Positions 5,936-29,516 of a DNA stretch of 32,793 bases are shown piece after piece. Below the pieces are notes generated by a model. The model was given only the letters and a program-made list of their open reading frames with translations, did not search any database and was not told the origin of the DNA. Both the position numbers and the translations under genes were made by a program. Position 1 is the first letter of the stretch, and each line of letters opens with the position of its first letter. The DNA comes from Deltaproteobacteria bacterium (lineage in GTDB: Bacteria > Myxococcota > SpSt-1050 > JACRCP01): contig JACRCP010000329.1 in NCBI GenBank assembly GCA_016218965.1, forward strand, positions 1 through 32,793, given 5' to 3'.

Positions 5936-6829
5936 TCATCGCGCGGATGCGGAGAGGGCGGCGGCTATGGACTTCACGAGGCCCACCGCCCTTTCGAGGT
6001 CGAACTCGGTGAAGTCGGCCTCCCGAAGTACAGGCCGGAGCTGTGAATCGACCTGCCGTACAAGCACAGCCAGACGCGGCTCGGAGACGTCCGCCGGTTC
6101 GTTCCCCGGCACCAATAGTTTCCTTCGCACGAGCGAAACCAACTCGCCGCTCCGAACGTCCAGCCCGAGTTTGCGGACCGCAAAGTCGATGTCGAAGAAA
6201 TCCCGAACGGCGGGTTCGCGTCGCGAAAGGGCCGCCCTCAGCTTTTCGGCAAAGGCCTCGGTCGACGAAATGCAGCGCACCTCGATCGGGGGAACGAGCG
6301 GTCCGCCCGAACCGGGGTCTTTGAGAATCGTTCTGGCAGGGGCGTTCTCGGCGGGAAGCAGAATGGGCTCGCGCAGTCCGACCTCGATCTTGATGGATTC
6401 CTCACGGGCGGCGAGCAGGGACTTGTATTTGACCGATGCTATGTACTGCGTCGAACCTCTTGCGCCCGTAATGGGGTTCGGCACGGAGAAGATCGGCAGG
6501 CGGCGCGGGAGGGTTGCGACGGCTTGCTTGAGCGTCTTCGTCCGCCTGCTGCGCTCTCCCCGGGTCGAGTCGACCGCCGTGGGGAGCGCGAAATCGAGAT
6601 CTTCGCTCAAGCGGCAGAACCGCGAATGGACCTTGGCAAGACACGTACCCCCCTTGAACACAAGGTTTCGGTCGGACTGCGAGAGGTATTCCAGCAAGAC
6701 CGTGCAGAGGTAGTCTTTTTCGATCAGTCGCGGCGCAAACAGCGTCTCTCGCGCGGTGAAGACGACCGCCGTCCTGAAGTACTCGGGGTCGTCCCACAGA
6801 CGGGCGGCCTGAATCTCAAGCCCGCTCAT
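5936..6829 (-). CDS. abiEii: AbiEii-type nucleotidyltransferase toxin (type IV TA)
   Basis: Nucleotidyltransferase-fold protein of 297 residues, the toxin half of an AbiE system. Motifs of the family are visible: VFKGGTCLAK (57-66), SEDLDF (75-80) with the two metal-binding Asp residues 77 and 79, the later IKIEVG block, and a C-terminal AEKL...RRE...RDFFDIDF segment typical of the DUF1814/AbiEii group. AbiE toxins cause reversible growth arrest and abort phage infection. Its start overlaps the end of the antitoxin gene by 14 bp. The pair is transcribed toward gpsA and seems to be inserted between gpsA and the MaoC gene. Function is inferred from family membership. Confidence 0.88.
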   Translation of the reverse strand: MSGLEIQAARLWDDPEYFRTAVVFTARETLFAPRLIEKDYLCTVLLEYLSQSDRNLVFKGGTCLAKVHSRFCRLSEDLDFALPTAVDSTRGERSRRTKTLKQAVATLPRRLPIFSVPNPITGARGSTQYIASVKYKSLLAAREESIKIEVGLREPILLPAENAPARTILKDPGSGGPLVPPIEVRCISSTEAFAEKLRAALSRREPAVRDFFDIDFAVRKLGLDVRSGELVSLVRRKLLVPGNEPADVSEPRLAVLVRQVDSQLRPVLREADFTEFDLERAVGLVKSIAAALSASAR

Positions 6830-7619
6830 TGAACACGACCCCCCATCGCGTGCTCGCTTTTCCCCGCTTCGGTCGGGTCGGGATCCAGGGAATCGGGCTG
6901 CTCGTCGGTTTCAGTGCGCTTTCGAGTTTCCGAACAAGCGACTCGGCGACGCCGAGGCGCTCGAACAAAGCTCCCACGCGGCGGATTGTGCCCACGTCGC
7001 CGAAACGGAGTGCACATTCCACGAGTCTTTCCGCGATGACCCGGCCTGACTCCAACTCCCGCGAAATCCACTCGAATCCTCGGGGAATCCCTTCGAACCT
7101 CGACCAGTCGTACACCGCGTCGACGAGCGAGCGGGTCCTCGACGCGTAGACCGCCTTGGCCTGCCCGCCGAACTCTCGTTCTTCGGTGTCACCGAGACGC
7201 GCGTCGTCGACCTTGATCAGCGTCAGGTCCACGGCGCCGACGCGCCGATCTCCCGAAACCCGGTTATTGTAGGCGTACACCCGGTTCGGCACCTGGTCGT
7301 CGAACCCGTAGAGGTTGAAAGCGTTCGGTCCGCAGATCTGGTATCGCCCCTGTTTTTCTTCCATCAAGGCGATCATCACTTCGGCGTCGGTCGGGGTCCA
7401 GGCGCCGCCCAACGGCAGCCGCGGCGGAACAAGGTAGACACCGTTCTTCACCCGCGCGATTAGCCCTCCCCGGGACAGCCGGCTGAGCAGTTTTTGCTCC
7501 TGTTCAGGCGCCAGGCGCAAAACCGACGCGGCCAGATCTCCCGCCCGGATCGTGTTCACCCCTCGCATCTGGGCGTACGAAAAGAACTGAGTTTCAAGTT
7601 TGCCCAACCTGGTTTTCAC
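6816..7619 (-). CDS. abiEi: AbiEi-type antitoxin and transcriptional repressor
   Basis: Antitoxin of 267 residues with an N-terminal winged helix (about residues 8-65; FSYAQMRGVNTIRAGDLA, then GLIARVKNGVYLVPP) and a C-terminal domain of the AbiEi type. Family members repress their own operon by binding inverted repeats through the N-terminal domain, while the C-terminal domain provides antitoxicity. The start is a GTG at 7619. A near-consensus sigma-70 promoter ends 6 nt upstream of it and no Shine-Dalgarno fits between, so translation is probably leaderless. The gene overlaps the toxin gene by 14 bp. The promoter is embedded in a large inverted repeat that is the likely operator. Confidence 0.88.
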   Translation of the reverse strand: MKTRLGKLETQFFSYAQMRGVNTIRAGDLAASVLRLAPEQEQKLLSRLSRGGLIARVKNGVYLVPPRLPLGGAWTPTDAEVMIALMEEKQGRYQICGPNAFNLYGFDDQVPNRVYAYNNRVSGDRRVGAVDLTLIKVDDARLGDTEEREFGGQAKAVYASRTRSLVDAVYDWSRFEGIPRGFEWISRELESGRVIAERLVECALRFGDVGTIRRVGALFERLGVAESLVRKLESALKPTSSPIPWIPTRPKRGKASTRWGVVFNERA

Positions 7620-10642: not shown

Positions 10643-12511
10643 ATGCACCGTACGCTGTTCGCATCATGGTTCGCGCTCGCCTGTCTCGGGGCAACGCACG
10701 CCCACGCCGCGGTCACCGCGACGGAAATGGTCCCGATGACCGACGGTGCCAAGCTCGCCACCGACGTCTACCTTCCGGCGCAGGGCGGCCCGTGGCCGGT
10801 GCTTCTGGCGCGCACGCCGTATGACAAGGACGGCATGACACAGACCGGGAACGACATCCAGAAGTCCAACCTGGCCGCCGCCGTCATCCAGGACACGCGC
10901 GGCCGGTTCCACTCGGAGGGGACCGACTGCATCTTCGCCTGCGACGCGGACGACGGGGCCGACACGATCGCTTGGATCGTGTCCCAGCCCTGGTGCAACG
11001 GGAAGATAATGACCCACGGCGGCTCGGCGCTGGGGATCGTCCAGTACATGCTTGCGCCAAAAAACGCTGCCGGTCTTGTGGGGATGATCGTGGACGTCGC
11101 GACGCCTGACCTTTACGACTTCATGTTCCCCGGCGGGGTCTTTCGCCAACACGACGTCGAGGGCTGGCTTGCCGGGCAGGGGAGCACGTTCTGGCTCGAC
11201 AACATCAAACAACATCCTTTCCTCGACGCGCACTGGGAGCCGGTGACCGCGTCCAGAAGATTCGGCGAGGTGAACGTCCCCGCGATACACGCCGGAGGCT
11301 GGTTCGACATCTTCACGCAGGGGACCATAGATGCCTTCGTCGGCTACCAGACGCGGGGCGGCGCAGGCGCAAGGGGAAAACAGAAACTCGTCATCGGCCC
11401 GTGGTCGCACGGCGCGCGCGGGAAGGAACAGGGCGAGATGGTCTTCCCGGACAATGCGACGCAGGATGCCATCAAGCTCGGCGACACGACGTTTACGTGG
11501 ATGGTCCACTACCTTGGCATCCAGAACCGTGAGGAACAGATCGACGCCATCCCCGCCGTGCAATACTACACAATGGGCGCGTGCGGCGAGACCGGCGCGC
11601 CCGGAAACGAGTGGCGGGAGGCCGAAGAGTGGCCGATCCCCGCGGCACCGACGCGGTACTACCTGCACGAAGGTGGAAAACTATTGACGGAGTGCCCCGC
11701 CGCCGACGCGTGGACCGATTCATGGACGTACGACCCGGCCGATCCGAGCGTCACAGTGGGCGGGGCCAACCTCACGCTTCCCGCCGGACCGTTCGATCAG
11801 TCCGGTGCGGTCGAGTCCCGGAGCGACGTCGCCGTCTACTCGACCGAAGTCCTTCCGGCGCCAGTCGAGGTCACCGGCCGCACGACCGCGCACCTGTGGG
11901 TTAGCGTCGACACGCCCGACACGGACCTCAACGTCCGTTTGACCGACGTTTACCCCGACGGAAGATCGATGCTCGTCACCGACAACCCGCTTCGCGTGGC
12001 CACTCGAGGAAAGGAAGACGGCATCGAGCTGCTCAAATCCGGCGAAATCGTCGAGGCGGTCGTGGACGTCGGAAGCACGTCAATGATCTTCAACAAGGGC
12101 CACCGCATCCGGATCATCATCTCGTCGTCGAACTCGCCGCGCTTTTTCCCCAACCCCAACAATGGCGAGTACTACGGCACGACGAAGCCGCTACGAAAGG
12201 CGACTGTTGCGCTCTATCACGACGCGGACCATCCGTCGTATCTCGAAGCCCCGAACCCGGACCTCGACCCGGCGGAAGTGAACGCGTGCGGGGGTGAACT
12301 CGACGGGGGGACGGACGGAACGACGGCCGACGGGGGGCCGACAGACGGGGGCACGACGGACGAAGGGATGACGGACGAGGGAATGCCGGGGGACGACGCG
12401 CACGATGCGGCGGGCGTAGACGATGGATCGGCGGGTACGGACGACGGTGGCGCCGACGCGGTCCCGGCCGAGCAGTCGGCGGGGTGCAGCTGCGCGGTGG
12501 TGGGGTTGTGA
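10643..12511 (+). CDS. Secreted CocE/NonD-type hydrolase with Cys-rich C-terminal tail
   Basis: Exported alpha/beta hydrolase of 622 residues in the CocE/X-Pro dipeptidyl-peptidase (S15) group. A signal peptide occupies residues 1-22 (cleavage after THAHA). The nucleophile elbow is HGGSALG. The acid is in AGGWFD and the His in IGPWSHG, matching the CocE triad order; a C-terminal jelly-roll domain follows. From about residue 560 a Thr/Asp/Gly-rich linker leads to a terminal GCSCAVVGL. No membrane helix or Arg cluster follows the Cys motif, unlike classical MYXO-CTERM proteins. GGAGG sits 5 nt before the ATG. The substrate (ester or peptide) is unknown. The same tail type occurs on three other proteins in this window. 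Confidence 0.87.
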   Translation: MHRTLFASWFALACLGATHAHAAVTATEMVPMTDGAKLATDVYLPAQGGPWPVLLARTPYDKDGMTQTGNDIQKSNLAAAVIQDTRGRFHSEGTDCIFACDADDGADTIAWIVSQPWCNGKIMTHGGSALGIVQYMLAPKNAAGLVGMIVDVATPDLYDFMFPGGVFRQHDVEGWLAGQGSTFWLDNIKQHPFLDAHWEPVTASRRFGEVNVPAIHAGGWFDIFTQGTIDAFVGYQTRGGAGARGKQKLVIGPWSHGARGKEQGEMVFPDNATQDAIKLGDTTFTWMVHYLGIQNREEQIDAIPAVQYYTMGACGETGAPGNEWREAEEWPIPAAPTRYYLHEGGKLLTECPAADAWTDSWTYDPADPSVTVGGANLTLPAGPFDQSGAVESRSDVAVYSTEVLPAPVEVTGRTTAHLWVSVDTPDTDLNVRLTDVYPDGRSMLVTDNPLRVATRGKEDGIELLKSGEIVEAVVDVGSTSMIFNKGHRIRIIISSSNSPRFFPNPNNGEYYGTTKPLRKATVALYHDADHPSYLEAPNPDLDPAEVNACGGELDGGTDGTTADGGPTDGGTTDEGMTDEGMPGDDAHDAAGVDDGSAGTDDGGADAVPAEQSAGCSCAVVGL

Positions 12512-15116: not shown

Positions 15117-16685
15117 TCAGAAGCCCACCGCCGCGCACGAGCACCCGGCCTCGGCCCCTGCCTGGCCGGCGGCGCCCTCGTCCGGTTTTTCAAGCCAGCC
15201 GACATCTGCGCCCGAGTGCGCGCCGGCGTCGTCTTTCGCCGGGCCCGAATCGCCGGGGCCGACCGAACCGTCATCAACGCTCCCCTCGTCCTCTGCCGTC
15301 GCCGCGTCTTCTGCGACGACAATTGCGTCGTCCGCCACCCCCGCGTCCGTCGTCCCGTCGTCCTGCGTCCCTTCGTCCGTCGTGCCTCCGTCCTCCATCG
15401 CCCCCGCATCCATCGTTCCTCCGTCGGACTGCCCTGCCGCGTCCGATGTCCCGCCGTCTGTGGGCGGCACGTCCGGGTCCTCGGGCCCAAGGTCACACGC
15501 GACGTCTTCGACGAAAAACTCGTTGGTGGCGCTCGCGCTCGCGCTCGCGGTCGTCTCCACCGTCACCGTGTGCTTCCCCACCGACAGCGCGGTCGCGTCG
15601 AACTTCCCGCGCCACTGGAACGGATTGGACTGCCGCGGCGTCATCGGCACGGCGTTCCCGTTGTCAACCGAGAAACTGGCGCTCAAAACGCTCTGGGGGT
15701 CAAAGACGAGGGCCCGGACGGGGGCTTCCGTGCACGATTTGGGAACGGGCGCATTGTGCGGGTTCCTGACCTTGCCTCCCCAGTCGATCTCCTGATCGGC
15801 CGGGGCGGTGATGACTACCTTCGGCCAACCGGACCTGGCGTCGAAGATGTTGACCGTGGCCGCGAGGTTGTCCAGCGCCCAGATGGCAAGGTTGTCGCCC
15901 TTGCTCTGCCCGAGCGCGTCTATCCGGAAACGCAGGACGTTGTCGTTCTCCACGGTGAGCTTCAGGTCATGGTTGTGGCCGTGAGAGTAGTAGTTCACCT
16001 TGTACTGCTGGAAGAGGCCGTCCATGTCGGACGCTTTTTTTGCGTTCTTGTAGTCGTGGTGGCCAAAACCCATCTGGAACTCGGCGTCGGAGTTCGCCTG
16101 CAGGAACGCATTGACTTCGTCGATTTCGCCGGAAGTGAACTCCACGTTGTCGAACGGCCATTGCGCGCCGTCGTTGCCGGGCGTCGCCACGCTGAAGAAG
16201 TGGAGCGACTGCTGAGGGAAGTCCACGCGCCAGGACTGCTGGGTACTGTTGGTGTCCGCGCCCTGCACCGAGTACTTCAGGTAGTGGCTGAGTGCGCCCT
16301 CGCCGTAGGCGTCGTGGTTCCCGGGGACGTCGAAGTAGAAATCCGGGGTCATTCCGTGGTCGTCGAGGATCTGGCGGTACTCCTCCCACTCTTCGTCGCA
16401 CGGAGCCCCGAGATACGACCCCAGCGATCCGCAAGTGTGGTCGGTCAGGTCACCCGTGACCACGATGAACAGCGGGTTGACATTCTGCGCGCACTCGCCG
16501 AGCGCCCAAGGCAGGCTGTCCGGATACCAGCCTACGAGCCCGGTCGAGTTGATGTGCGTGTCGCTCGTCTGGATGAACCAGACGACGTTGGAGCCGTCGT
16601 TTGTGTACTTCCCGAGTGTCTGCGCTGTCGCGGACGACGGGAAGGAGAGGACGAGAACGACTGGAAACAGCGCGGCCTTTTTCAT
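15117..16685 (-). CDS. Secreted calcineurin-like metallophosphoesterase with Cys-rich tail
   Basis: Exported phosphoesterase of 522 residues. The signal peptide covers about residues 1-21 (SSATAQ). The five metallophosphoesterase blocks are present: SDTHIN with Asp42 and His44, GDLTD (78-82), GNHD (122-125), GHHD and GHNHD. The order resembles the TMEM62-like branch. A beta-sandwich domain follows (FSVDNGNAVPM ... HTVTVETTA), then an acidic Asp/Gly/Thr-rich linker of about 110 residues, ending in GCSCAAVGF. The tail has no membrane helix after it. The start was set at ATG 16685, which begins the signal peptide. The natural phosphoester is unknown. Location at the cell surface or periplasm is inferred. 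Confidence 0.87.
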   Translation of the reverse strand: MKKAALFPVVLVLSFPSSATAQTLGKYTNDGSNVVWFIQTSDTHINSTGLVGWYPDSLPWALGECAQNVNPLFIVVTGDLTDHTCGSLGSYLGAPCDEEWEEYRQILDDHGMTPDFYFDVPGNHDAYGEGALSHYLKYSVQGADTNSTQQSWRVDFPQQSLHFFSVATPGNDGAQWPFDNVEFTSGEIDEVNAFLQANSDAEFQMGFGHHDYKNAKKASDMDGLFQQYKVNYYSHGHNHDLKLTVENDNVLRFRIDALGQSKGDNLAIWALDNLAATVNIFDARSGWPKVVITAPADQEIDWGGKVRNPHNAPVPKSCTEAPVRALVFDPQSVLSASFSVDNGNAVPMTPRQSNPFQWRGKFDATALSVGKHTVTVETTASASASATNEFFVEDVACDLGPEDPDVPPTDGGTSDAAGQSDGGTMDAGAMEDGGTTDEGTQDDGTTDAGVADDAIVVAEDAATAEDEGSVDDGSVGPGDSGPAKDDAGAHSGADVGWLEKPDEGAAGQAGAEAGCSCAAVGF

Positions 16686-21786: not shown

Positions 21787-23682
21787 ATGAAGCACGCGCT
21801 GGAAGGGGTTGCGGTCCTGACGATCGCCGCGTTTTCCGCAACCGCGGGAGCGTGGACGCCCGGGCAGACGGAGTTGTTTGACAAGGCAGTCGAGGAGTAC
21901 GTGTACTTTTCGGACGGGGCGGGGGCGGCGTACGCCGTCGCCGCCGGAAGCGACCAGCCGCTCGTTGTCGTCAAAGGCCTTGCGGACATTCCGAACCGGA
22001 CGCCGCTGGGTCCGGAGCACGTCTACCGGATCGGGTCCGTCACCAAGACGTTCGTTGCGGTCACGGTGCTCCAACTCGTCGAGGAGGGGAAGCTCTCGCT
22101 CGACGATCTTCTGTCGACGTGGTACCCCGCCTACCCGAACGCCGACAACGTGACCATCAAGATGCTCCTCAACATGACCACCGGTTTTACGGACTACCTC
22201 GAGGTTTCGGGGATCGACTATGGCAAAACGTGGACCCCGGAGGAACTCATCGAACTCTCGCTCGAAGGGTCCGCGTACTTTGAGCCGGGCGCGGCGTGGG
22301 CCTACTCGAACACCAACTACATTTTTTTAGGAAGGATAGTCGAGGAGGTCACCGGCCACACAATCGGTGCCGAGCTTCGGGCGCGAATCTTCGACAAGCT
22401 CGGTCTTTTGCACACTTGGTTCGACGGCGAGGAAACTGTCACCGACCCCATGCCCCGCGGATACGTCCACTCGTGGGGGTCGTTGTACGACTACACCTAC
22501 GGCCTCAACGCGAGTCTTGCGTGGGCCGCGGGGGCGATAGTCTCGTCACCGGGCGATCTGATCCGCTACGCGCAGGGCGTCTTCGGTGGCGGGCTGCTCA
22601 GTGCGGACTCGCTTGCCAAACTCATCGACTTCATCCACGTCGACGGCGTGCCGGTCTACGGACTCGGAGTCGTCCACTACGACACGGCGATCGGCGCCGC
22701 GTGGGGTCACGACGGGAGCACCGGCGAGTTCATGACGATCCTCATGCACGTGCCCGACAAGAACCTGTACTCGGTCATCCTCAACAACTCGGACAACTAC
22801 GACCAGTACGCGTTCAACGACGAAGGGCTTCTGATCGCGGCCGGCGCGCCGACGTTTGCGCCGCGAGACTGTACTGCGCCGGACGGGTTTCTCTCGACAA
22901 GCGGCGCCGAGAACCGCCTGACAGCCAAATTCAGGGGGGTGATCAACGCCGCGGACCCTTCCCCGGCGCCATTTCGCGCGGCCCTTGGGATATTGAAGCT
23001 CGACCGTTTCGGGTTCGTGACCGACACGAACTACTGTCGTGAGTATGCGTATCTGGTCGAGAGCGGCGGCGAGGAGTTCGTCAACTTCGACGCGAGCTGC
23101 TACGAGGGCGGCCGGTACAACGTAGGTCAGCTCACGGGACGGCTGTACCGCGTCTCAGTGCCGCTGACGTCGTTCGCGGCCGCCCGCGACGGCGGCTACA
23201 ACCAGTTCGCCGCCGGCGAGAAGACCAGCGCCGCGGTCTCGGACTTCACGTACGATCTGGACAAGGCGGTGGCCGTCAAATTTTGCTACGTCGCGCTCAA
23301 GGACAACGCCGGCGCGTCGGACCTCTTCGTCTGCCACTCGCCCGGGACGCAGTTCGCCGCCGGAGAGGAGATCGTCATGTGGGGGTCGATCGCGATGAGA
23401 ACGGAAATCCCGGCGCCCGAGCTGTGCTTCTGCTGGAACGATACAACGCAGGCCTACGACAATTGCCCGCTCGTCGATCCCGAGGACGGCGGAATGCGGG
23501 ACGCCGGGACCGATGGCGGGGCCGACGGATCCTCCGACGCCGCTCACGACACGGTACCGACCGACTCCGGGTCTCCGTTCGACGCGCAAGGCCCCGACGG
23601 CCCGGAGCCGCCCGCGGACTTCGCCTCCGAACCCGAAAGCGAAGGCGGCTGCGGCTGCACGACCCTGGGGCCGGTGTTATGA
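21787..23682 (+). CDS. Secreted serine beta-lactamase-fold hydrolase with Cys-rich tail
   Basis: Exported protein of 631 residues. The signal peptide is about 1-22. The penicillin-binding/class C beta-lactamase fold spans about 30-370 with all three motifs: SVTK (Ser84 and Lys87), YSN (173-175) and HDG (308-310). Likely activities are D-alanyl-D-alanine carboxypeptidase or esterase. A second domain (about 380-580) is beta-rich with several Cys residues and is unrecognised. An Asp/Gly-rich linker then leads to the end GGCGCTTLGPVL, a variant of the GCxC tail, again without a membrane helix. GGAGG lies at 21778-21782 before ATG 21787. It ends 7 bp from the convergent lipoprotein gene. Confidence 0.88.
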   Translation: MKHALEGVAVLTIAAFSATAGAWTPGQTELFDKAVEEYVYFSDGAGAAYAVAAGSDQPLVVVKGLADIPNRTPLGPEHVYRIGSVTKTFVAVTVLQLVEEGKLSLDDLLSTWYPAYPNADNVTIKMLLNMTTGFTDYLEVSGIDYGKTWTPEELIELSLEGSAYFEPGAAWAYSNTNYIFLGRIVEEVTGHTIGAELRARIFDKLGLLHTWFDGEETVTDPMPRGYVHSWGSLYDYTYGLNASLAWAAGAIVSSPGDLIRYAQGVFGGGLLSADSLAKLIDFIHVDGVPVYGLGVVHYDTAIGAAWGHDGSTGEFMTILMHVPDKNLYSVILNNSDNYDQYAFNDEGLLIAAGAPTFAPRDCTAPDGFLSTSGAENRLTAKFRGVINAADPSPAPFRAALGILKLDRFGFVTDTNYCREYAYLVESGGEEFVNFDASCYEGGRYNVGQLTGRLYRVSVPLTSFAAARDGGYNQFAAGEKTSAAVSDFTYDLDKAVAVKFCYVALKDNAGASDLFVCHSPGTQFAAGEEIVMWGSIAMRTEIPAPELCFCWNDTTQAYDNCPLVDPEDGGMRDAGTDGGADGSSDAAHDTVPTDSGSPFDAQGPDGPEPPADFASEPESEGGCGCTTLGPVL

Positions 23683-24857: not shown

Positions 24858-25985
24858 ATGACACGTCGCGCAGTTCGCATTCTCTCAGTGGCCGTCTTCG
24901 CGGGTTTTGCGGCGGGCTGTTTCGCGCTCGCCTGCTACGGTGTCCCCGAAGACGACCTGCCGGGCGAAGATTCCGGGGAGGATGGGAGCGGCGGAACAGC
25001 CCGGGACGCCGGAAAGACGCGGGACGGCGGCGCGCCGAACGATGCCGGGAAGAAACCCGACGGCGGCACGGGCGGCAAGTGCGTCTCGGATTTCAACTGC
25101 CCGACCTCGGACCTCCCGTGGTGCGACACCGAGAGCGGCAGGTGCGTGCAGTGTCTCCTAAACGGTCAGTGCTACTCGGGGATATGCGACCTCGACACGC
25201 ACACCTGCACGGGGTCCGGGGGCGACGAGGGCGGGTTGAAGGACGCCGGCGGTGCCAAAGACACGGGCCAGCCGTTTGACTCGGGAACAAAAGACACCGG
25301 CCCGGCCGACCCCTGCGTCGGCGTGACATGCTCGGGACACGGCGCCTGCGTCAACCAGGGCGGTTCGGCATCGTGCTCGTGCGAATCGGGGTATGTCCCG
25401 AGCGGACTTGACTGTGTGAAAAACGACGCGTGCGGCGGGTGCTCGGGACGCGGGACGTGCACGACTTTCGGCGCGACGAACGTCTGCGCCTGCGACCCCG
25501 GGTACACCGCGGGCGACACCGCCGGGCGAACCTGCGTCCCCACTGCCGACGTCTGCAAGGGCGGACCGATCGACTATGACGTTGACGGCGACGGCACGAA
25601 CGAGAAGACCTTTGAGCCGTCGGGGCTCGAGTGCGAGATGTACGAATTGGTGAACTACACCCGCGCGACTCACAACGACGAAGGGGCGCCCGAGTGCCAC
25701 ACGCCTCTCGGGTACTCCCTTGAATGGTCCGCGCACGGGCGCAACCACAGCAAGAAGATGAGCGACAGGGGCGGCCTCTTTCACGAGGACTTCCCTTGGG
25801 GCCAGAACTGCGCCTACGGCTGCGACCCCGCGTGCGAGATGAGCATGTACATGACTGGTCCGTCCGAGCCGCACTGCCCCGACCTGTCGCACCACTGCAA
25901 CATCATGCGTTGCGGCTTCAGCTACGTCGGCATCGGATACTGGCCCCCCGACACCGGCACCTGGAACACCCAGAATTTCTACTGA
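24858..25985 (+). CDS. Lipoprotein with EGF-like modules and a CAP (SCP/PR-1) domain
   Basis: Protein of 375 residues. The signal ends at AAGC (Cys21), giving a lipoprotein, followed by an Asp/Gly-rich linker (about 30-75). Cys-rich modules follow: CVSDFNCPTSDLPWC ... CTGSG, then two EGF-like units (CSGHGACVN ... CSCESGY and CSGRGTCTTF ... CACDPGY). The C-terminal third is a CAP domain: LVNYTRATHNDEG, LEWSAHGRNHSKKM, LFHEDFPWGQNC and GFSYVGIGYW give the conserved His and Glu positions. CAP proteins act outside the cell in binding or proteolysis-like roles; the ligand is unknown. The stop overlaps the convergent glycoside hydrolase gene by 7 bp. Confidence 0.86.
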   Translation: MTRRAVRILSVAVFAGFAAGCFALACYGVPEDDLPGEDSGEDGSGGTARDAGKTRDGGAPNDAGKKPDGGTGGKCVSDFNCPTSDLPWCDTESGRCVQCLLNGQCYSGICDLDTHTCTGSGGDEGGLKDAGGAKDTGQPFDSGTKDTGPADPCVGVTCSGHGACVNQGGSASCSCESGYVPSGLDCVKNDACGGCSGRGTCTTFGATNVCACDPGYTAGDTAGRTCVPTADVCKGGPIDYDVDGDGTNEKTFEPSGLECEMYELVNYTRATHNDEGAPECHTPLGYSLEWSAHGRNHSKKMSDRGGLFHEDFPWGQNCAYGCDPACEMSMYMTGPSEPHCPDLSHHCNIMRCGFSYVGIGYWPPDTGTWNTQNFY

Positions 25986-28371
25986 AGCAGGCGCCAGCGG
26001 GCGTTTGCGAGCCAATCCGGCTGGCCTTCAAATCCCTGCATGGCCGGTTCGCCCGGGGCGGGGGGTTTGACGACCGGGAAGTCAGCGCGCCCCGGCCGGC
26101 CCAGAACGACGACCTTTTTCCCGTGGATGTCAGGCGGCCACGCATCCAACCCCTTGATGAAGTACACACCTCCGTCTTCCATGACTACCACCGCGCCCAT
26201 CTTGGCGTCGCGCGCGGTCCCCTCGACCACGATCTCGCTTCCGCTTTCCGCGCGTGACACGACCGATTCCTTCGGTTTGCCGGCGCGTTTCTCGCCTTTG
26301 ACCCGCATGCCGAGGAAGGCCAGCCGGTTGTGGATGAGATCGGCCGCGCGCGGCGCCTTTTCCCCTTCGCGGACAAGGAAAGTCACTTTCCACTCGCCGA
26401 TGTGCCACGGAGGCATTACCGGTTGTGTGTCGATCTGGCCCGCCTGCTCCTCTTTGTTGTAGAGGTGCACGTAGAACGCAATGCCGTCCGGGTCGGGCTC
26501 GGGGAATCCGGCGGTCCAGCCGGCGCGGGTAGTGCTGCGGTGCGTCTTGTGCGAGTACGAAATCTCGCACCGTGCGGGCCTGACGGCCTCGGCGACCGAG
26601 AACTTTTCGAGTTTCGGGTGTTCGGGTTTGAGCCTTTCGATTTCCCGCGCGATATCCTCTACGATCCTCGCGCACTCGGGTCTGACGCCGGCGTCGGGCG
26701 CGACCGCTTTCGCCGCGTCCGCCGGCGGGCCCGCTCCGACCGAGGCGCAGCTACAACCGCCGGTGGTGGCATGGTCAGCGCGTTCGGTGTCGGCTGTTGA
26801 CCGCGCGTCCGTTGTCCTTTGGCCCTTCGTCCCCGCGTCTGTCCCCGTCTCTGTCTCCGCGTCGTTCGTTCCTTCGTCCCCTGTCGCTCCGTCGGCGGAC
26901 AGGTCGGACGGATCGGACGCGTCCGACGAATCGGGACCCGAGTCGAAGGGGTTCCCACCGTCTCCCGTTGCGGCTCCCGCGTCTTCCTTCCCGACGTCCA
27001 TCGGTCCTTCGTCGGTCGCGGCGTCCCTGGCAGCGTCGAAGGACGCATCGGACGGATAGGACGTATCGGACGAATCGGACCCCGCGTCCTGCCCGGCGGG
27101 TCCGACGTGCACCGTGACGGTGTCCGCGTCCTCGATGCCGTCGTTGTCGGTCACGACGAGCGTCACGACGTAGGTCCCCGCGGGCGCGAACGCCCGGCTG
27201 ACCTTGGCGCCCTGCGCCTGCTCGGTCACGCCGTCCGAACGGTCGAAGTCCCAACGGTGTTTCGTGATCTGACCGTCGGGGTCTTTGGAGCCCGAGCCGT
27301 CGAACTGGGCGGGCACGCCGGCAACCGCGTCGATGTCCGGTCCCGCCTCGGCGCGCGGCTGGTGCGCGGCGATGTACTGCTTCACTGCGTCAAACGCGGG
27401 CTTGCGCGACCAGTCGGGACGGATGATCCCCCAGCAGTTGTCCATTCCCGGGTCGCAAGCGTCGGCGTCCCAGATCTCGTAGAAGATCGTCTTCTTCCAC
27501 CAAGACGACCTCTTGCGCATTTCGTCGAGCAACTGCGCGTAGTACGCCGCCTGCTTCTGTTCCCACTCCGCCGCCTGCGTCTTCCAGCCCACCTCGGTCA
27601 ACCAGACCGGCTTGCCCGAGAGCCCGTTGTTGTCGATCGCCTTTTTCCGGCACTTGTCCCATGGCCAGCCACCGGTGCAGTCCAGCCGCAGGAGGACCTT
27701 CTTGACGTCGTCGGTGTTGTCGCAGCAGGCATAGACATGGACAGTAATGACGTCCAGGTACTGGCCGCCGCCGGCCTTGAAAATGGCGTCCAGCCAGTCG
27801 TCGTTGCCCGAGTCGGGACCCAGCACGAGGGCCGCCGGGTCCGCCGCGCGCACCGCCTCGAACCCGGGTTTCAAGACGTAGTCCACGAACTGCTGCTGCG
27901 TCCCCGACCAGAAGTGCGCTGCTCGGGCTCGTTCCACATGCCCCAGTGCTTCACGCGGTCGCGGTAGCGCTCGACCGTCGCCTTGACGAAGTGTCGATAA
28001 AGGTCGGGCGAGCGCGGGACGCCTGTCCGGACTGCGCCGTCTGTGGCCCACTGGGGCGTGTACGCGAGCGTGGCGAAGACAAGGTGCCCGTGCGCACGGG
28101 CGGTGTCGACCATCTTGTCCATGATCGACCATTCGAACACGCCGTCCGAGGTCTCGATGCCGTTCCAGTCGGCGTCTATTCGCACCCACGGCGCGCCCAG
28201 TTCGTCAATGGCCGAAGCCGCCTCGGCCTCGTGCTGCGCGTGGAGCTGATGGACGCAGAAACCCCACGGCCACCCCTCGCGGTTGTCGGGGAGGTTAAGC
28301 ATCGTCTGGGCGCCTGCCGGCGCCGGGCAGACGAATGCCAACAAGAACGCGCCAACCCGAATCGACTTCAT
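25979..28371 (-). CDS. Secreted glycoside hydrolase with PKD domain, interrupted by a frameshift
   Basis: Two frames together encode one exported protein of about 797 residues. The first frame (28371 to about 27919) has a signal peptide (1-22) and half of a TIM-barrel ending in HWGMWNEPEQ, with Glu148 as likely acid/base. The rest is in another frame, starting at HFWSGTQQQFVDYVLKPG and holding the probable nucleophile in WLTEVGWKT. Joining them needs one extra base near 27916-27921. The pattern suits GH39/GH5-like enzymes. A PKD domain (PAQFDGSGSKDPDG ... HRWDFD), an Asp/Ser-rich linker, a GGCSCASVG motif and about 200 further residues of unknown type follow. The frameshift may be a sequencing error or a true inactivation. 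Confidence 0.8.
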
Positions 28372-28588: not shown

Positions 28589-29017
28589 TCAATGGACTTC
28601 GATCAAAACAGGCGCAGTTTGCTTTTGAGTGGTGCCGTTTCCTACCTGTCCGAAATAGTTGCGGCCCCAGCACCAGAGAGTGCCGTTGTTTTTGATTGCA
28701 CACGAATGTTGTTCTCCCGAAGACGACATGATCCAGTCGCTGTCGTTTCCAACCCGAATGGGCGCGAAAAAGCTGCCATAGTATTGTTCCCCATCCCCAA
28801 GCTGACTGTATAGATCAGACCCCCAGCACCAGAGCGTGCCGTCAGATTGAATCCCGCAGGTGTGGTCATCGCCAGGAGCGACGTTTTTCCATTGGTCATC
28901 GCTTTTCACCCTGGTCGGAACATCTTTGCCGCCAATTTTTCCAGTTCCGAGCTGACCATCATCGTTGTCACCCCAACACCCGATTTCGAGCGCTTCATGC
29001 TCACAACCCGACGTCGT
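28589..29017 (-). pseudogene. Remnant of an RCC1-repeat (beta-propeller) protein
   Basis: An open frame of 143 codons with no start codon near its beginning encodes RCC1-type repeats: CWGDNDDGQLGTG, DDHTCGIQSDGTLWCWG, SQLGDG, EQHSCAIKNNGTLWCWG and GQVGNGT. Complete proteins have about seven such blades, so most of the N-terminus is missing. The first residues (GCEHEALEIGCWG) look like a damaged blade. The remnant begins 17 bp inside the end of the RES toxin gene, with a TAG (29018-29020) just before it. GC content is lower than in neighbouring genes. The arrangement suggests that the toxin-antitoxin module replaced the front of this gene. Confidence 0.7.
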
Positions 29018-29516
29018 CTACTCTGAGAAACACCTTGCCGAGATCGGATTCGACCTTTTCCATGAAAAGCACCAGACACCATTTCGCCAAATCGTCCAAG
29101 AATGCCATCGAAGGCACGAAGATCGCCTGTGCCGGCGTGGTCGTCCGGATGAAGCTCGCTGTCGACCTGCATATGGCCTTGTCAAGGAAGCTTCTTTGCG
29201 GGTCGAGCGAGAGCGCCTTGACAACCTTCGCGTCAGTCAGGTCGAGTGTACTTTCAAGTTTCAGGCGATACTCATGGATCGTCCTGTCGCGAAGTTTCGC
29301 GACGAGCGACTTGGTCCTCGACTCCTCGACATGTCTTGAGAACTCTGCCAGCACGACCGATTTGTCACTCGCCAGGTAGAGCGTCGGCTCCCCTTCCCTG
29401 TTCCATCGATGCTCCAACGAACGCCCGCACAGGCTGAAATCCATCGGGTCGCCGGTCTTGGGGATGTGACGAACTGCCGGCCCGGTCCACGGCTTCAGGT
29501 ATGTGTGTATCGGCAT
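29001..29516 (-). CDS. RES-domain toxin
   Basis: RES-family toxin of 171 residues; characterised members degrade cellular NAD+ and stop growth. The conserved block GRSLEHRWNREGEPTLYLAS...LAEF contains Arg37, Tyr47 and Glu58. Their spacing (10 and 11 residues) is the same as in the known catalytic Arg31, Tyr41 and Glu52 of Pseudomonas putida Res. The start ATG overlaps the stop of the antitoxin gene by one base (TGATG), so the two are coupled. The end of the gene overlaps the open frame of the RCC1 remnant. All key residues seem present, so the toxin is probably active. Confidence 0.88.
   Translation of the reverse strand: MPIHTYLKPWTGPAVRHIPKTGDPMDFSLCGRSLEHRWNREGEPTLYLASDKSVVLAEFSRHVEESRTKSLVAKLRDRTIHEYRLKLESTLDLTDAKVVKALSLDPQRSFLDKAICRSTASFIRTTTPAQAIFVPSMAFLDDLAKWCLVLFMEKVESDLGKVFLRVDDVGL

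Follow-up and report, generated by a model that had tools for sequence, protein, structure and literature searches.

A two-cysteine C-terminal tail on dozens of exported proteins seems to substitute for the longer, membrane-spanning MYXO-CTERM surface anchor of myxobacteria

Introduction

The C-terminal tags read by sortase, exosortase, rhombosortase and myxosortase share one plan, in which a motif is followed by a helix and a basic cluster. For the myxosortase tag, MYXO-CTERM (TIGR03901; MrtX, MrtC and MrtP), the described pathway comprises Sec export, a proposed lipidation of Cys, cleavage by MrtX beyond the Cys, and the type II secretion system (T2SS) (Guo, Haft and Wall 2025, PMC11980579). 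Cleavage of TraA by MrtX requires the Cys residues, and lipidation of these residues is only proposed in that work (PMC11980579). MrtX is a member of the Rce1/CaaX-protease superfamily, for which short, helix-free Cys tails are the classical substrates, so that a helix-free myxosortase client is plausible. To our knowledge, myxosortase cleavage has been demonstrated solely for helix-bearing substrates.

Here we describe a "naked" tail that resembles MYXO-CTERM in several respects: exported proteins carry a GCxC motif behind a disordered linker, the genome encodes a Mrt-family protease together with a T2SS secretin, and the client proteins are homologous. Unlike MYXO-CTERM, it has no transmembrane helix or Arg cluster and ends 4-5 residues past the second Cys. 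The eukaryotic CaaX box and Rce1, and archaeal MmRce1, offer a second likeness, in that the Cys motif is likewise short, C-terminal and helix-free and the genomes studied here encode a protease from the CPBP superfamily to which Rce1 belongs. In contrast to CaaX proteins, however, proteins with naked tails are exported and have two Cys, with 4-5 rather than 3 residues past the last one. The CaaX criterion of a Cys four from the end is therefore unmet, the second Cys being fifth or sixth from the end depending on the family (sister family and source family, respectively); CaaX-like aliphatic positions are present. The C-termini of Rab-type CXC proteins, which are cytoplasmic, eukaryotic and doubly prenylated, share the near-terminal C-x-C pair with the naked tail, as a resemblance only. 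GlyGly-CTERM/rhombosortase, PEP-CTERM/exosortase and LPXTG/sortase likewise mark many unrelated exported proteins for sorting through a C-terminal signal, but all are tripartite with a helix and rely on another motif and enzyme. A helix-free tail was not described in any paper recovered by a literature search, with the limitation that an earlier in silico survey of myxosortases lay outside its coverage.

The DNA analysed (the window, 32,793 nt) is contig C227 of a Myxococcota metagenome-assembled genome (MAG), here called G000 (6.29 Mb, 418 contigs, 94.7% complete). Only two order-mates were examined, G001 and G002, which belong to a family differing from that of G000. The scope is one order and three genomes, all three draft MAGs with simple in-house gene calls, and several samples were picked around motif matches, the exception being a 428-kb sample of G001.

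Results

A preliminary description of the window had assigned a GC[SG]C motif to four exported proteins. The motif occurs in all four, but only three of the copies are C-terminal tails (Table 1). The fourth, in a glycoside hydrolase gene, is internal, and the N-terminal part of that gene lies in a different frame (27871-28371) with the frame change near the gene start, so this copy was not counted as a tail. For the three remaining proteins, which had been said to end within 2-5 residues of the motif, the position near the chain end was confirmed and the distance corrected to 1-3 residues after the eight-residue motif, that is, to 5, 5 and 7 residues past the second Cys. As previously claimed, the codons for the Cys motif differ among the genes. 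TIGR03901 gave no match on the naked-tail proteins of the window at E<=1 (for the beta-lactamase-fold protein, among the best 25 of 45 families), and none of the NCBIfam models matched naked tails.

Table 1. Positions of motif-bearing genes, tails and a linker within the window.
Feature	Position	Strand	Basis or remark
CocE/NonD-type (peptidase S15) hydrolase, signal peptide, naked-tail end	10643..12511	+	TIGR00976 370 bits; PF02129/PF08530
Asp/Gly/Thr-rich linker, ~61 residues, N-terminal to GCSCAVVGL tail	12299..12481	+	translation
Naked tail GCSCAVVGL + stop	12482..12511	+	end of CocE/NonD-type hydrolase
Calcineurin-like metallophosphoesterase, signal peptide MKKAALFPVVLVLSFPSSATA, naked-tail end	15117..16685, likely start 16685	-	PF00149; signal-peptide scan
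Naked tail GCSCAAVGF + stop	15117..15146	-	end of metallophosphoesterase
Serine beta-lactamase-fold protein, naked-tail end	21787..23682, likely start 21787	+	PF00144 1e-52
Naked tail GCGCTTLGPVL + stop	23647..23682	+	end of beta-lactamase-fold protein
Glycoside hydrolase + PKD + Asp-rich linker + motif + unknown C-terminal part	25979..28371	-	
Internal motif copy GCSCASVG, >250 codons downstream, not a C-terminal tail	26735..26758	-	

Across G000, about 60 proteins carry a naked tail, most commonly with exactly five residues past the second Cys. The DNA motif pattern matched 31 times, mostly at the ends of long ORFs behind Asp-rich linkers, compared with a single match for the reversed-pattern control; the stop-anchored pattern matched 32 times compared with none for its reversed control, and a motif HMM marked 65 places. 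In a set of 64 collected proteins, of which a few have long tails or are doubtful, the chain continued for 5 residues past the last Cys in 38 and for 6-7 in 16, and seldom for more. The preliminary description had held that a lack of enrichment of the motif at protein ends would refute a sorting role, and strong enrichment was found. The tail consensus is GCxC followed by 4-5 residues, with V, L or I at the third position past the second Cys. Nearly all naked tails have the GC[SG]C signature, which corresponds to the invariant-Cys, generic GCGC motif of MYXO-CTERM, and conservation past the second Cys extends to the hydrophobic position and, in the family of G000, to a Gly. The two Cys are invariant in these sets partly by construction, since the sets were gathered with C-x-C patterns or a model derived from them; the independent check is the unselected G001 sample described below.

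The stop codons of 42 tail genes in G000 (TGA in 29, TAG in 13) were not followed in frame by a C-terminal helix, which rules out a hidden helix reached by read-through or frameshift. Hydrophobic stretches past these stops were few and scattered over all three frames, and the sole in-frame one (at L069) is the beginning of the following gene. A C-terminal Arg-rich cluster was absent from the naked tails examined.

Matches in the order-mates, for which the locus first found in G002 has 39% GC, had a closely similar form. All 19 that were inspected were naked, typically GC[SG]C[ST]x[VLI][EN] at the stop, and 26 of 28 collected proteins had four residues past the second Cys. The spacing to the chain end is therefore lineage-typical, mostly 5 in the family of G000 and 4 in the sister family. 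In the 428-kb sample of G001, which was not chosen for matches, 7 of 287 genes end in C-x-C plus exactly four residues, with 0.04 expected from Cys frequency, and no single-Cys variant of the tail was seen there. Together with the pattern and control counts, this sample rules out a chance origin of the tails. The four-residue pattern matched 36 times in G001 and 14 times in G002 (control, 1 and 1) and only at background level in the 192 other Myxococcota genomes of the 195 searched, and the five-residue form was likewise at background level in 55 other Myxococcota genomes. Flanks of 80 named mrt loci, scanned for naked tails, yielded one unconvincing match. Among the genomes searched, the tail is thus confined to one Myxococcota order, with the reservation that the patterns fix the spacing and that tails with a different spacing would escape them.

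Analysis of the tail-bearing proteins indicated that most are exported. A signal peptide was recognisable in 51 of 68 complete tail proteins compared with 180 of 585 other genes (p ~3e-12), even though the scan was crude and several of the remaining tail proteins have one by eye. Lipoprotein signals were rarer among tail proteins with a signal peptide than among the others with one (6/51 versus 60/180; p=0.003), two of the six lipobox calls being doubtful by eye. The general absence of an N-terminal type II signal is as expected if the tail itself is the anchor, and the few exceptions that are lipoproteins as well (e.g. L115, L117, L168 and L170) suggest that anchoring may not be the only role of the tail. 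The domains ahead of the tail are diverse and include metallophosphoesterases, Kelch propellers, VWA, M10 and M64 proteases, agmatine deiminase-like proteins, GH25, S15 and the beta-lactamase fold. A Cys-rich module of the approximate form CxCDxTYxCDxDCxCDPEC recurs directly ahead of the tail in both families (L069, L082, L104, L108, L109 and L113 in G000; L128, L132, L137 and L323 in G001/G002).

In addition to naked tails, G000 has about nine classical tails with motif, helix and Arg/Lys residues, e.g. GCACASVGTGGTGPAAALLVFVLGLVALVVLRRR. Contig C272 carries two paralogues (68% identity over 315 aa) that differ in their ends, one closing with GCSCSSVKV at the stop and the other with a helix and RRR; a G001 homologue of the helix-tailed protein is naked (52% over 641 aa). 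Similarly, a G000 metalloprotease (L308) with a helix and RRRQ tail has a naked homologue in G001 (53% over 361 aa). This protein is related to NCBIfam NF041905, the "myxosortase-dependent metalloprotease", a family scoring far above cut-off in genomes of the same phylum, and the relatives inspected in other Myxococcota genomes close with Cys plus helix, an Arg/Lys cluster being present in nearly all of them. Among these homologues, naked and motif-helix-Arg tails interchange. The preliminary description had also expected that helix-bearing versions of the same proteins in related genomes would expose the genes as truncated; their order-mate homologues are naked too, indicating that the genes are not truncated.

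No helix-type MYXO-CTERM was found in G001 or G002, either by TIGR03901 at E<=1 or among the sampled genes, leaving naked tails as the only candidate myxosortase substrates seen in these two genomes. The silence of TIGR03901 is weaker evidence than it seems, since it finds just two places in G000 compared with about nine helix tails by eye, but it is backed by the motif-HMM matches, all naked, and by the sampled genes. In G000, two ORFs of 2437 and 2254 aa (L071:13490, minus strand, and L111:9942, plus strand, respectively) have a MYXO-CTERM-like motif and helix in their interior. Beyond the helix come a run of basic residues and another hydrophobic segment, which in L111 resembles the signal peptide of a lipoprotein (LSAGC); these ORFs are possible fused precursors of two proteins.

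Each of the three genomes encodes exactly one myxosortase-family protein above the curated cut-off, with conserved EExxxR, LGHF and HxxxN-type residues, and in each the T2SS secretin GspD also scored over its cut-off. The placement of G000 in Myxococcota is inferred from the Myxococcus metalloprotease family NF041905, which genomes of this phylum carry, and from the closest named relatives of the myxosortase, which are Myxococcales, Archangium and Myxococcus. The mrt gene adjoins a DUF3108 gene in all three genomes (L154-L156). For the DUF3108 protein, considered as a possible lipid-handling partner of the myxosortase, the predicted structure was poor (pLDDT 47), which made a fold search on it unusable, and its sequence had no match among PDB sequences. 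Two lgt-like genes in tandem are conserved across the three genomes (L334-L336, L340-L342); G000 has six lgt-like genes (the pair and four more), compared with two each in the other Myxococcota checked. This connection to lgt is only a lead.

Discussion

Given the tail swap among homologues and the co-occurrence with a single conserved myxosortase, the tail looks, on sequence grounds, like a helix-free variant of MYXO-CTERM and not like an unrelated system. This upholds the earlier suggestion of a shortened, Cys-based signal for sorting or anchoring, which remains the best reading in light of the enrichment at protein ends and the naked homologues in order-mates. The further suggestion that the signal is distinct is upheld only in part, since naked and classical tails replace one another in homologous proteins.

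We consider it probable that the tail is a helix-free, CAAX-box-like form of MYXO-CTERM that is lipidated on Cys and trimmed by myxosortase, with lipidation and cleavage both inferred. In such a scheme, tail proteins would first be exported by Sec, after which one or both Cys would receive a lipid at the inner membrane, perhaps from an enzyme of the Lgt family, although the identity of the lipid-adding enzyme is itself inferred. The myxosortase would then remove the last residues, much as a prenylated CaaX protein loses its -aaX to Rce1, and the lipid would provide the membrane tethering for which classical MYXO-CTERM uses its hydrophobic helix. The route would be the published MYXO-CTERM pathway through the T2SS acting on a tag minus its helix, and the surface location of the products is again an inference.

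More tentatively, the tail could be an extracytoplasmic, bacterial CaaX-like box, in which a dedicated transferase would recognise the free C-terminus of a soluble exported protein in the absence of a membrane tether and lipidate it, the protein then being trimmed and surface-anchored. Lipidation might here be double, on the C-x-C pair, with the second lipid replacing the lost helix.

The myxosortase of the order-mates could nevertheless serve other substrates, and the tail could be read by an unrelated, unidentified sorting or anchoring enzyme. We regard this as unlikely, but the near-fixed spacing to a free C-terminus does point to recognition of the chain end, unlike the action of an intramembrane protease on a helix. 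In addition, the DUF3108 gene that adjoins mrt in this order was absent from the flanks of 79 other mrt loci (some of which end at a contig edge) and raises the possibility of an altered function. Nevertheless, the GCxC signature is identical to that of MYXO-CTERM, close homologues swap the two tails, and every genome retains its one myxosortase, all of which point back to the myxosortase reading.

Alternatively, the tail might be lipidated on Cys and left uncleaved, more like the product of a myxosortase than its substrate. The sequence already has little beyond the proposed lipidation motif, and this reading would also fit the depletion of lipoprotein signals; we find it improbable all the same, given that the conserved 4-5 residues past the second Cys suggest recognition and that a myxosortase is still kept. 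A purely structural Cys pair at the chain end, forming a disulfide, metal site or cross-link with no role in sorting, merits little credence: the two Cys do co-occur, with no single-Cys version in the G001 sample, and some linkers have the second Cys-rich module, but the tail follows many unrelated folds (from Metallophos, Kelch and VWA to M10/M64 proteases, GH25, S15 and beta-lactamase) and is interchangeable with MYXO-CTERM. Truncated or mis-assembled MYXO-CTERM genes, arising by frameshift or stop read-through, can practically be set aside despite the 418-contig assembly and the frame change in the glycoside hydrolase gene, in view of the missing in-frame helix, the few, scattered hydrophobic stretches past the stops, and the occurrence of the naked form in G001 and G002, where the length typical of the lineage differs.

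If the MYXO-CTERM reading is correct, the known surface-sorting system of myxobacteria may work in this order with a tag nearly as small as a CAAX box. The helix common to the described tags would become dispensable, recognition of the motif would be separable from membrane tethering, and the modifier of the MYXO-CTERM Cys would become directly testable with a short tag. With no NCBIfam model matching the tails, the surface proteins of this order would also escape present annotation.

Finally, the window contains other genes of note. An AbiEii-type nucleotidyltransferase toxin gene and an adjoining DUF6088 gene (5936-7619, minus strand) are likely a type IV toxin-antitoxin pair, and further downstream lie genes for a RES-domain protein (29001-29516, minus strand) and for a deoxyhypusine synthase-family protein (PF01916; 30119-31357, plus strand), the latter in a bacterium.
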